From Sulfurovum sp. TSL1 (GTDB taxonomy: Bacteria; Campylobacterota; Campylobacteria; Campylobacterales; Sulfurovaceae): 64,000 nucleotides of DNA. The stretch is taken from assembly GCF_019972135.1 (NCBI RefSeq), contig NZ_BPFI01000002.1, positions 62,001 to 126,000 on the forward strand, in the 5' to 3' direction. Positions 32,528-38,086 of the stretch are shown here, in pieces. Under the pieces are notes generated by a model. That model made no database searches. It worked only from the letters and a program-made list of their open reading frames with translations, and was not told where the DNA came from. Position numbers and translations under genes: made by a program. How positions within the stretch are numbered: the stretch's first letter is position 1; every line of letters begins with the position of its first letter.

Positions 32528-33091
32528 ATGTTATCAGCCATAAAACATAAACTTATCACACTTGTACAACTCCTACTTGTTATGACCTATATCCTCTTTG
32601 AAGAGTTGATCTGGGAAGGAATTGCAAAACCTATCTATGAAGCGATCCATGCACTTAAAATACTTCAGCGTTTAGAAGCAAAGTTGGAGAACTTGAATCC
32701 CTCTATGATTCTTGTTATTTTTATACTCTTATTTGTCATAGTGGAAGCATTCGGTCTTTATGCGGGAATGTTGTTTGTCAGCGGACAGATGATCTTGGGG
32801 CTGGTGCTCTATATCGCCAAGATCCCAATCGCGGCATTTACTTTTTGGCTTTTTAGAGTGACAGAAGAGAAGTTGATGCAGTTTGGATGGTTTAAATGGT
32901 TGTATGAGTGGATCATGCGAGCGATCGCCTGGATCAAGGCTACTGAGATACATCGCAAAACGATGGAACGTTTGGTAGAGATGAAGAGAGACATCAAAGC
33001 ATGGAAAGAAAAATACTTTGCAGGGGAAAGTCCATTTATTGGGAGAATGAAACAGCTTTACAAGAGAGTGAAAGTATCATTGAGAAAATAA
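32528..33091 (+). CDS. Conserved membrane protein of unknown function
   Basis: 187 residues with three hydrophobic stretches (~10-28, ~58-80, ~83-105) and a basic C-terminal cytoplasmic-looking tail (~140-187, rich in Lys/Arg). The stretch between the first and second helices is amphipathic. I do not recognise a family; similar lone membrane proteins downstream of rplS occur in relatives. It has its own AT-rich upstream region with TATAAT-like sequence at ~32492 (GCTATAATAG). Confidence 0.75.
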   Translation: MLSAIKHKLITLVQLLLVMTYILFEELIWEGIAKPIYEAIHALKILQRLEAKLENLNPSMILVIFILLFVIVEAFGLYAGMLFVSGQMILGLVLYIAKIPIAAFTFWLFRVTEEKLMQFGWFKWLYEWIMRAIAWIKATEIHRKTMERLVEMKRDIKAWKEKYFAGESPFIGRMKQLYKRVKVSLRK

Positions 33092-34963: not shown

Positions 34964-34969
34964 TATAAT
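34964..34969 (+). promoter_or_regulatory. Extended -10 promoter of the envelope trio
   Basis: TATAAT preceded by TATGG (extended -10) 31 bp before the preferred start at 35001. The three following genes have gaps of 3-14 bases and no internal promoter seen, so this probably drives all. Confidence 0.55.
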
Positions 34970-35000
34970 TATAGGAATATTAATTATGTGGAGCTATAGA

Positions 35001-35564
35001 ATGACTTTATCAAGAGGGTGGTATTACCCCTTAATATTTTTGTTTTTGTTCAGTGCATCTTTTGTTGAAGCACAAGAAGATACAGCACTCGCAACGGAAC
35101 AAAAAAATACTTATGTGAATCTAAATACAGAAAAACCAGACTCTAAGATCATTATCGGAGCGCTGGAGTATGTTCGACTTGTACCTCCTAATGTGGTACT
35201 CAAAGCGCGTATTGACACAGGTGCAAAAACGACATCCATCGATGCACGTGATATCACTCCTTTTGAACGTGACGGTAAACAGTGGGTGCGGTTTGTCTGT
35301 GTGTCCGGAGAAAAAGAGTATACGATCGAGCGAAAAGTGGTCAGAACAGTACAGATCAAGCGTCATGGAACAGAGTCACAGGACCGTTATGTGGTAGAGA
35401 TGCGTATCATTCTCGGTAATGTATCCCAGCTTATCTCTGTGAACCTGAATGATAGGGATGAATACAAATACCCTGTCCTTATAGGACGTAATTTCTTACG
35501 CGATTTTTTTATGGTTGATGTGGCAAAAAAATATCAATTCAAACCTATGTCTTTACCTAAATAA
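35001..35564 (+). CDS. Exported retropepsin-like protein (RimB/DUF785 family)
   Basis: 187 residues. A signal peptide (MTLSRGWYYPLIFLFLFSAS...VEA) directs it to the periplasm. The domain begins IIGALEYVRLVPP and holds the aspartate motif ARIDTGAKTTSIDA of the pepsin/retropepsin-like family often labelled ATP-dependent zinc protease. Only one Asp motif is present, so activity would need a dimer. ATG 35001 has GGAG seven bases upstream; ATG 34986 is an alternative. It is first in a run with an inactive-transglutaminase membrane protein and an ATP-grasp ligase, a recurrent association. Confidence 0.85.
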   Translation: MTLSRGWYYPLIFLFLFSASFVEAQEDTALATEQKNTYVNLNTEKPDSKIIIGALEYVRLVPPNVVLKARIDTGAKTTSIDARDITPFERDGKQWVRFVCVSGEKEYTIERKVVRTVQIKRHGTESQDRYVVEMRIILGNVSQLISVNLNDRDEYKYPVLIGRNFLRDFFMVDVAKKYQFKPMSLPK

Positions 35565-35578
35565 GAAGGGAAAAATGC

Positions 35579-37108
35579 ATGTCTAGAAGATTTCAAGTAC
35601 GATTGATCACGTTCGCTTTGGCATTTACAGGATTTTTTATCGTCTGGTATAAGGTCGGTGTACTTGGCATACCTTTTTTACCCCATGAAAAGCGTTCTGT
35701 CTATACGGTTGGAGCGGAGATCTCATTTGTAGGGCAGAAGAAATCGGTATTGGTCTCTATGGCACTGCCAGAACCTCAGGAGGGGATACAGATACTCTCT
35801 GAAGATGTTGCATCATCCGGTTTTGGCTATGCCGAGGGAGAAACTGTAAACGGAAAAAGGGCTGAATGGAGTAAGCGTAATGTGGTAGGGCCGCAGATGC
35901 TTTACTACTCTCTTGAAGTCTTGATAGAACCGGGAGAGCATAAGCCTAAACCGCCTATTGTCCCGTCTGAACAAGAAACTGAGACGCTTAGTGATCTTCC
36001 AAATATGCTGCAGGATACTGCAAAAAATCTTTTACATGATATACGTTCCAGATCGGCAGATACACATTCATTTACAGCACAGCTGATCAAGGATTTTAGT
36101 GCCAAAGAGCCTTCGCAGGCAGTGAAAATACTGCTTGCACAGTCAGGAGAAAGCAAAATTGATCTGCTCTACCGTCTGCTAAGATACAGAAAGATAACAG
36201 TACGCAAGATCCATGGGCTTTATCTGGAAAGTGCACGGCGTAATATCGCATTGACACCTATGCTGGATGTCTATGACGGAAAAGATTGGCAACTGTATGA
36301 TCTGAACAAAGGTAAAGTGGTCCGTGATAAGAACTTTTTTGTTTGGCAGCAGGGCGATAATGCTTTGATAGAGGTCACCGGAGCAAAAAAATCCAACATC
36401 AGTTTTTCATTGAATGAACGTCAGGTTCCCGTACAATATCTTCTTGACAAAAAAGAGCTTGTCAAAAAGGCAGCGATATTGGACTTTTCACTCTTTACCT
36501 TGCCTATATCCGAGCAGAATACCTATAGGCATATCTTGCTGGTACCCTTTGGCGCATTGGTGGTGGTATTGTTAAGGATCATGGTGGGATTGAGAACGTC
36601 TGGAACCTTTATGCCCGTGTTGATAGCATTGGCCTTTATGGAGACGACACTTTCTGCCGGGCTGATCATGTTTATCATGATCGTAGGAATGGGTCTGATC
36701 ATTCGTTCGTATTTAAGCAGTCTGAACCTGTTACTGGTCGCAAGGATCTCCGCAGTGATGATCGTCGTGATCCTTATTATGTCCTTTATGAGTATTTTAA
36801 GTTTTAAACTGGGGATCAAAGAAGTGCTTACTGTCACATTCTTCCCTATGATCATTTTGGCCTGGACGATTGAAAGAATGTCCATATTATGGGAAGAAGA
36901 GGGGGCAAGAGAGGTCTTCATTCAAGGTGGAGGTTCACTCATCGTTGCTGTGTTCGCTTACTTTGTCATGAGTGATCCCTTTGTTTCACATATAGCTTTT
37001 AATTTCCCGGAACTGCTTTTGGTGGTATTGGCCGTAATCATTATGATCGGACGTTACAGTGGATATCGTTTGAGTGAACTCATGCGTTTCAGATCCATGG
37101 TGGAGTGA
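35579..37108 (+). CDS. Inactive-transglutaminase multi-TM protein (UUP1 family)
   Basis: 509 residues. One N-terminal helix (~7-27), then a periplasmic region (~35-310). Its middle (KDFSAKEPSQAVKILLAQSG ...) resembles a transglutaminase-like domain but without a catalytic Cys-His-Asp set. Then come about six or seven membrane helices (~320-500) with GLRTSGTFMPVLIALAF. Such proteins are encoded beside alpha-glutamate-ligase-like ATP-grasp enzymes and retropepsin-like proteins, as here. Likely inner-membrane; the biochemical role is unknown. Confidence 0.85.
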   Translation: MSRRFQVRLITFALAFTGFFIVWYKVGVLGIPFLPHEKRSVYTVGAEISFVGQKKSVLVSMALPEPQEGIQILSEDVASSGFGYAEGETVNGKRAEWSKRNVVGPQMLYYSLEVLIEPGEHKPKPPIVPSEQETETLSDLPNMLQDTAKNLLHDIRSRSADTHSFTAQLIKDFSAKEPSQAVKILLAQSGESKIDLLYRLLRYRKITVRKIHGLYLESARRNIALTPMLDVYDGKDWQLYDLNKGKVVRDKNFFVWQQGDNALIEVTGAKKSNISFSLNERQVPVQYLLDKKELVKKAAILDFSLFTLPISEQNTYRHILLVPFGALVVVLLRIMVGLRTSGTFMPVLIALAFMETTLSAGLIMFIMIVGMGLIIRSYLSSLNLLLVARISAVMIVVILIMSFMSILSFKLGIKEVLTVTFFPMIILAWTIERMSILWEEEGAREVFIQGGGSLIVAVFAYFVMSDPFVSHIAFNFPELLLVVLAVIIMIGRYSGYRLSELMRFRSMVE

Positions 37109-37111
37109 TCG

Positions 37112-38086
37112 ATGTTTGCCAATCCTTTTAAGCTTAAAAAGTTGGGTATATTGGGCATGAACAAACGAAATATACATTATATCGGAGCACATAACGATCG
37201 TAAATATTATCCTTTGGTGGATAATAAGCTGAAAACCAAGATCGTTGCACAGAATGCCGGTATTGCAGTGCCTAAGCTGATCAAAACCATCGAACGTCAG
37301 TCCCAGCTTCGACATTTAAAAGAGATGCTGGAGGGGATCGACGGATTTGTACTTAAGCCTTCCCAGGGAAGCGGAGGAAAGGGTATTTTGGTCATCGTCA
37401 AACGTGAAGGTGATGAGTTCATTAAAGCCAACGGGCAGAGACTTGCATTGAGGGATATCCAACGGGATATCTCAAATATTCTCAGCGGTCTCTATTCACT
37501 TGGGGGAAAACCCGATGTTGCCATGCTTGAGACACTGGTGGAATTTGACCCTATTTTTGACCGTTACAGTTATGAAGGGGTTCCGGATATCAGGGTGATC
37601 ACCTATAGAGGATACCCTGCCATGGCAATGTTGCGATGTTCCACACGGGAGAGTGACGGCAAGGCAAATTTACATCAGGGTGCGGTGGGTGTAGGACTGG
37701 ACATCGCAACAGGCAAGGCACTCTTTGCTGTACAGCATGGTAGACCCGTGACACACCATCCTGATACAGGCTATGATTTCTCTGAGCTTGAAATACCGCA
37801 TTGGGAGAAGATACTCTCCTTGGCCGCATCATGCTATGAGGTGACCCATTTGGGATACCTGGGTGTAGATATCGTGCTGGACAAGCACTTAGGTCCTTTG
37901 ATCCTGGAACTCAATGCCCGTCCCGGACTGGCCATACAAATTGCCAACAGAACAGGGGCAGTCAAACGCTATGACGTGATCGATACACAACAAGCCAATC
38001 TGGATGTGACGCAGAGAGTCAAATTCTCCATGGAGCATTTTAATATGCAAGAAGGTGAAGATCAAATCATCATGAGAGAAAAGTAA
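37112..38086 (+). CDS. Alpha-L-glutamate ligase-like ATP-grasp protein (RimK-like)
   Basis: 324 residues. Near the start: LGILGMNKRNIHYIGAHNDR, then the ATP-grasp elements GFVLKPSQGSGGKGILVI (phosphate loop), EFDPIFDRYSYEGVPDIRVI, and the metal-binding LGVDIVLDKHLG ... LELNARPGLAIQIAN. RimK-like enzymes add glutamate or similar residues to a carboxylate; the substrate of this subfamily is not established. No export signal, so cytoplasmic. It starts three bases after the UUP1-like gene, indicating co-expression. Confidence 0.88.
   Translation: MFANPFKLKKLGILGMNKRNIHYIGAHNDRKYYPLVDNKLKTKIVAQNAGIAVPKLIKTIERQSQLRHLKEMLEGIDGFVLKPSQGSGGKGILVIVKREGDEFIKANGQRLALRDIQRDISNILSGLYSLGGKPDVAMLETLVEFDPIFDRYSYEGVPDIRVITYRGYPAMAMLRCSTRESDGKANLHQGAVGVGLDIATGKALFAVQHGRPVTHHPDTGYDFSELEIPHWEKILSLAASCYEVTHLGYLGVDIVLDKHLGPLILELNARPGLAIQIANRTGAVKRYDVIDTQQANLDVTQRVKFSMEHFNMQEGEDQIIMREK

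Follow-up and report, generated by a model that had tools for sequence, protein, structure and literature searches.

Positions 35001-38086 of the analyzed stretch of the Sulfurovum sp. TSL1 genome (64,000 nucleotides, hereafter the window) contain three genes on the + strand, in the order rloA-rloB-rloC, that are predicted to encode a secreted retropepsin-like peptidase, a membrane protein with an inactive transglutaminase-like domain and an ATP-grasp ligase of the RimK type (Table 1). This trio is almost certainly the rloABC operon, which encodes the Rlo (retropepsin-like osmotic stress tolerance) system described in 2025 in Pseudomonas aeruginosa, where the operon corresponds to PA1768-PA1766 (PMC12239564). 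Thus, a known system is found here in another phylum, Campylobacterota. The genes are separated by only 14 (rloA/rloB) and 3 (rloB/rloC) bases, in agreement with the close co-encoding described in an initial sequence-only reading of the locus, and read in one direction.

Table 1. Predicted features of the rlo locus and the adjacent downstream gene, in window coordinates
Feature	Position	Strand	Evidence
rloA-like gene: secreted retropepsin-like peptidase, PF05618	35001..35564; alternative start 34986	+	Pfam, NCBIfam, structure matches
RloA N-terminal signal sequence (inferred): ~24 aa, hydrophobic, ends VEA	35001..35072	+	translation, by eye
DTGA active-site motif of RloA	35214..35225	+	alignment
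rloB-like gene: inactive transglutaminase-like + membrane domain, PF14400 + PF14402	35579..37108	+	Pfam, NCBIfam
RloB residues 39-284: predicted periplasmic domain with a transglutaminase-like fold that lacks Cys/His	35693..36430	+	AlphaFold2 model, Foldseek, VIA, alignment
RloB residues 310-465: membrane helices, weak RnfA/NqrD likeness	36506..36973	+	model of residues 286-509, VIA, Foldseek
rloC-like gene: ATP-grasp RimK-like ligase, PF14397 + TIGR02291	37112..38086	+	Pfam, NCBIfam
RloC motif GPLILELNARPGL; the RimK of this genome has GPLVMEVNSSPGLE at the aligned position	37892..37930	+	RloC-RimK alignment
VF530-type small protein, PF09905	38102..38338	+	Pfam

A GGAG sequence seen by eye 7 bases upstream of 35001 makes this position a better start for rloA than 34986, and a TATAAT was noticed, also by eye, at 34964-34969. 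The suggestion that the trio is served by one promoter was not borne out by the promoter scan, which yielded 13 promoter-like sites where 8.9 were expected (sd 2.5). The fourth gene, of the VF530 type, begins 15 bases downstream of rloC and may be on the same transcript; it is probably a passenger of the operon because it adjoins rloC in only 2 of 27 loci, those of Sulfurovum sp. TSL1 and one close relative. At 32528-33091 (+), a 187-aa membrane-type protein is encoded that has no Pfam match at E 0.01. No Rfam matches or tRNA genes were detected in the 64-kb window. Gene sets of this kind are reportedly discussed as early as 2009, in the survey of amidoligases by Iyer and colleagues.

The Sulfurovum trio resembles P. 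aeruginosa RloABC in gene order, domain content, predicted compartments and the inactive transglutaminase-like domain, as well as in the DTGA motif and the polyglutamate-contact positions of RloA. It differs in that RloA and RloB score under the narrow NCBIfam cut-offs, in that RloA lacks the Cys at the disulfide position, and in that a single exported RloA stands against three in P. aeruginosa (PMC12239564).

Peptidase RloA and ligase RloC

RloA matches PF05618 (E 1.3e-35), and the closest solved structures are 9g58, 9g59 and 2pma. The nearest NCBIfam names are RloA3, RloA and RloA2, although the scores of 100-108 bits are below the cut-offs of these narrow models (210-280). Together with the DTGA motif and the export signal recognized by eye, these matches support the earlier view of the first protein as a periplasmic one with an aspartate motif. 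The catalytic Asp is invariant in the 107 aligned rows, which, like the 108 rows of the RloB alignment, include duplicate loci, and the Gly of the motif is found in 103 of these rows. The remaining four, from Kineobactrum and Haliea (L060, L088, L090 and L093), have Ala in its place, so that these operon proteins carry DTA instead of DTG with the Asp kept; B and C are retained in these loci, and whether this type of RloA is an active protease is, judging from the motif, uncertain.

Crystal structures of P. aeruginosa RloA reveal retropepsin-like dimers; the protein cleaves polyglutamate in vitro, contacting it through four symmetric positions, K46, R92, R114 and R137, and mutations of these positions impair both cleavage and complementation (PMC12239564). 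In the alignment with 9g58, mapped by hand, these positions correspond to R75, R120, R134 and R157 of Sulfurovum RloA (numbered from the start at 34986), with R75 in place of K46 being a conservative K to R change. The four columns contain R or K in 102, 88, 103 and 103 of the 107 rows, respectively. Thus, as judged by alignment, both the active site and the four polyglutamate-contact positions are preserved in Sulfurovum RloA. A Cys of the disulfide-forming pair described for the periplasmic RloA proteins of Pseudomonas (PMC12239564) is replaced by Ile in Sulfurovum, and Cys is absent from the six commonest letters of this column across the 107 rows.

A crude pattern classes 73 of the 100 RloA proteins encoded in operons as lipoprotein-like and finds a hydrophobic stretch alone in 21 and neither feature in 6; five of these six seem to be cut at the locus start, and the start of the sixth (L078) is, by eye, too long. 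No lipobox was seen by eye in Sulfurovum RloA. In six Endozoicomonas loci (L058, L059, L061, L066, L079 and L081), RloA is a single chain with two retropepsin domains (e.g., L066:6784-7947, +). Each domain contains a DTGA, with 166 residues between the two, and the halves are 35-41% identical in all six proteins; PF05618 was found twice per protein in the three that were scanned, and the start is lipobox-like. By its domain layout, this tandem protein looks like a dimer joined into one chain, the arrangement of pepsins, and a literature search on tandem RloA found nothing. In one Arcobacter locus, a second RloA-like gene, 31% identical, is located near rloC on the same strand (L045:10470-11027, +).

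RloC matches PF14397 (E 1.3e-94), with weaker matches to RimK-type domains, and is the only protein of the trio to pass the cut-off of an NCBIfam model (TIGR02291, 'alpha-L-glutamate ligase-like'; 438 vs 314 bits). Its alignment with the genome's own RimK, in which 8 of the 106 RloC loci were used, shows that the ATP-grasp and NLHQG motifs are conserved. No export signal was seen in RloC, which is therefore presumed to be cytosolic; this agrees with the description of the third protein as a cytoplasmic RimK-like ligase. Most of the N-terminal part of RimK is missing from RloC, so that the acceptor, and perhaps the amino acid as well, may differ from those of RimK.

The same genome encodes a separate rimB-rimK pair (G000 C1:184640-185901; L029 and L031), downstream of which lies a gene that, by eye, was named succinylglutamate-desuccinylase-like. 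No PF05618 protein beyond RloA and this RimB was found, so the genome has one exported RloA.

Membrane protein RloB

RloB matches PF14400 (E 4.4e-38) and PF14402 (E 5.5e-106), and scores 335 bits against the cut-off of 900 of the narrow NCBIfam RloB model. In the AlphaFold2 model (mean pLDDT 77, pTM 0.56), residues 39-284 resemble the transglutaminase-like structure 3isr (Foldseek E 3.5e-9; VIA Z 13.4, rmsd 4.2, 217 aligned residues). The Cys-His-Asp triad of active transglutaminases is absent from the 108-row alignment: in columns 140-285, Cys occurs in at most one row and His in at most 18 rows of any column. The proposed absence of catalytic residues from this domain is thus confirmed.

The membrane half is strongly conserved, with 47 invariant columns of 243 among 48 rows. 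Modeled alone (residues 286-509; 47 of the 106 loci, with less than 88% mutual identity, plus the Sulfurovum locus), it gave pLDDT 78 and pTM 0.70. The best VIA match was RnfA (8ahx_A; Z 9.0, compared with the advised level of about 13 for helical folds; rmsd 3.2, 125 aligned residues), followed by two NqrD chains (Z 7.5 and 7.3), a chain of the Mtr complex (7.2) and then a match at 5.8. Because the Foldseek E value for RnfA is 5.2, we treat this weak likeness of the model to RnfA/NqrD, subunits of ion-pumping complexes, as a lead only; RloB, unlike these subunits, has no conserved Cys. RnfA/NqrD genes are present in 1 of the 31 genomes searched, which comprise this genome and its relatives. 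The RnfA/NqrD fold consists of two three-helix inverted repeats. A candidate internal repeat in the RloB membrane half (TSGTFMPVLIA and LTVTFFPMIIL, in the same register) is not claimed, the two halves giving an hhalign probability of 1.5% when compared with each other. A sequence search of the PDB with the RloB profile gave best matches of E 0.18 or worse, and nothing below E 2.6 was matched in a viral structure library.

Distribution and co-occurrence of the rlo genes

PF14402 (RloB) was detected in 8 of the 21 genomes of a near-relative search, this genome included, and, patchily, in 21 of 398 Campylobacterales genomes and 9 of 87 genera. TIGR02291 (RloC) was found in 22 of the 398, namely the same 21 and G330, where the match is a fragment below the model cut-off near a contig end. 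This fragment (contig C88, L140:1498-2124, -) starts from about residue 150, the genome has no RloB or PF05618 matches, and the fragment represents either a remnant or an assembly edge. Far from lacking co-occurrence, B and C are thus shared by the same 21 genomes (Fisher p 4.9e-34, uncorrected for shared ancestry). PF05618 is more widespread, with matches in 89 of the 398 genomes; 15 of the rlo genomes contain two matches and 6 contain one, and A adjoins B in all 21.

Across the 27 loci from the near-relative and Campylobacterales searches, A is beside B in every case and the ordered trio is present in 26, the sole locus without C (L008) being cut by a contig end. A-B-C was also found in 79 of 80 named loci, which are the best 80 of 576 relatives and hence lean to near relatives (5 seem to repeat contigs of the first set); in the exception, L076, B starts 427 bases from the contig start. 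Another carrier of the operon is Malaciobacter halophilus (L083), likewise a campylobacterote. Given these counts, with both exceptions cut by contigs, the ordered recurrence of the trio is far beyond chance, and the claim that the set recurs in bacteria stands.

The association is one-sided. Among the 30 loci available for judging the N-termini of PF05618 proteins, RloA-type proteins with a hydrophobic N-terminus (by eye) and no accompanying B or C were found in G093, G106, G262, G368 and G384. Thus, A occurs without B and C, whereas B and C without A were not seen in the 21 genomes, nor in the 79 of 80 loci from the best 80 of 576 relatives. When the ORFs around the latter loci were clustered, with clusters judged from one example row each, no neighbor family apart from the trio itself was shared by most bacterial groups; the exceptions are ORFs seemingly antisense to or inside the trio, and other families are confined to one to three groups.

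The sequence distances of RloA, RloB and RloC correlate (r 0.86-0.92, without control for species history). In a joined B + C tree, built by a quick method and containing several long branches, the 32 Campylobacterota rows form two groups, one of 28 and one of 4; this suggests, as far as such a tree can indicate, that rlo was acquired twice in this phylum. The tree includes 100 of the 108 RloB rows, leaving out L003 (the Sulfurovum locus), five loci apparently on the same contigs as others (L037, L039, L040, L042 and L043) and the cut loci L008 and L076.

Models of Rlo function

In P. aeruginosa, a triple rloA mutant does not grow in low salt and shows defects in biofilms, cell shape and the response to antibiotics. 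Growth is restored completely, and the remaining traits in part, when rloB or rloC is deleted (PMC12239564). This rescue runs counter to unrelated phenotypes of the three genes, which the sequence-only reading had named as a ground for refutation. Other published material includes the recovery of rlo genes in an exopolysaccharide suppressor screen (PMC7314104) and the Shewanella vesiculosa inactive transglutaminase HM2192, obtained from hypervesiculating mutants; annotated as 'fused to seven transmembrane helices', it is likened to RloB by annotation, not by sequence (PMC12096838). The statement that the substrate is not established still holds for the natural one, but not in vitro, where polyglutamate is cleaved by P. 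aeruginosa RloA (PMC12239564). An in-cell substrate, ligase activity of RloC and transport by RloB are not demonstrated in the literature found.

The anatomy of the trio agrees with the proposal of a system that operates across the inner membrane. Under the mechanism we favor, RloC would, in the cytoplasm, attach glutamates to an acceptor or synthesize an unattached chain; RloB would move or present this product across the inner membrane, with its transglutaminase-like domain binding the glutamate chain; and RloA would trim the product in the periplasm, where the untrimmed form would harm the envelope. Taken as a whole, this mechanism seems to us about evenly balanced between being right and wrong. 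It draws on the RloA contact positions, the RloC motifs, the B/C co-occurrence and the rescue genetics of P. aeruginosa, and would account for the reported effect of losing B or C as well as for the one-sided co-occurrence, a pattern suggesting that the protease removes what RloB and RloC leave behind. The same pattern would arise if the operon were merely passed on as one unit, and the four DTA proteins, unless this motif is active, are hard to reconcile with an absolute requirement for proteolysis. The making and trimming steps are more secure than the moving step, which we infer and which is the weakest; it is a proposal of the present analysis because the main text of the P. aeruginosa report contains no word beginning with export or transport (PMC12239564).

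It is conceivable, if rather unlikely, that RloB is instead a sensor or scaffold, whose inactive transglutaminase-like domain binds a cleaved or uncleaved periplasmic peptide and switches RloC, with RloA resetting the signal. Inactive transglutaminase domains have been proposed elsewhere as peptide binders (PMC3482391), and deletions of rloB and rloC are alike in effect in P. aeruginosa (PMC12239564). However, RloA would still need access to a substrate made in the cytosol, and the conservation of the RloB membrane half exceeds the needs of a tether; nothing was found that points to a sensor role, so that this part of the sequence-only reading was not sustained.

Another explanation, unlikely in our estimate, is that the target of RloC is a lipid-linked or peptidoglycan precursor, or a protein exported in the ordinary way, with RloB as a pathway partner and polyglutamate cleavage as a laboratory proxy. 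The cell-shape and antibiotic phenotypes of P. aeruginosa (PMC12239564) would fit, as would a ceftazidime selection that lists PA1767 (rloB) with 4 mutants (PMC10187892), but the charged contact positions of RloA are kept across the 107 rows, and their mutation impairs cleavage and complementation in P. aeruginosa (PMC12239564).

RimB-RimK, which glutamylates ribosomal protein S6, likewise combines a retropepsin with an ATP-grasp glutamate ligase and shares motifs with Rlo, but is cytosolic and has no membrane protein. The reading of the trio as a second copy of this system, despite the homology of RloA and RloC to RimB and RimK, is rejected as highly improbable because a separate rimB-rimK pair is present in the genome, and RloA carries an export signal and 6 of the 21 rlo genomes lack a second PF05618 protein.

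The present analysis adds the asymmetric co-occurrence, seen in a second phylum, a genome with a single RloA and the structural lead on RloB. The asymmetry agrees, in that second phylum, with the removal by RloA of a harmful product of RloB and RloC. A quite doubtful extension of the mechanism holds that RloB is a new kind of exporter, in which an RnfA/NqrD-like ion-coupled domain would move the chain made by RloC, the dead transglutaminase would hold it on the outer side and a retroviral-type protease would cut it; if this were true, RloABC would be a machine for making, moving and trimming periplasmic polyglutamate in Gram-negative bacteria. In P. aeruginosa, Rlo affects biofilms, cell shape and antibiotic tolerance (PMC12239564). 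Having one exported RloA and no paralogs, the Sulfurovum genome offers a simpler test bed for the substrate and the role of RloB, and loss of its rloA should by itself cause the low-salt defect that takes three deletions in P. aeruginosa.
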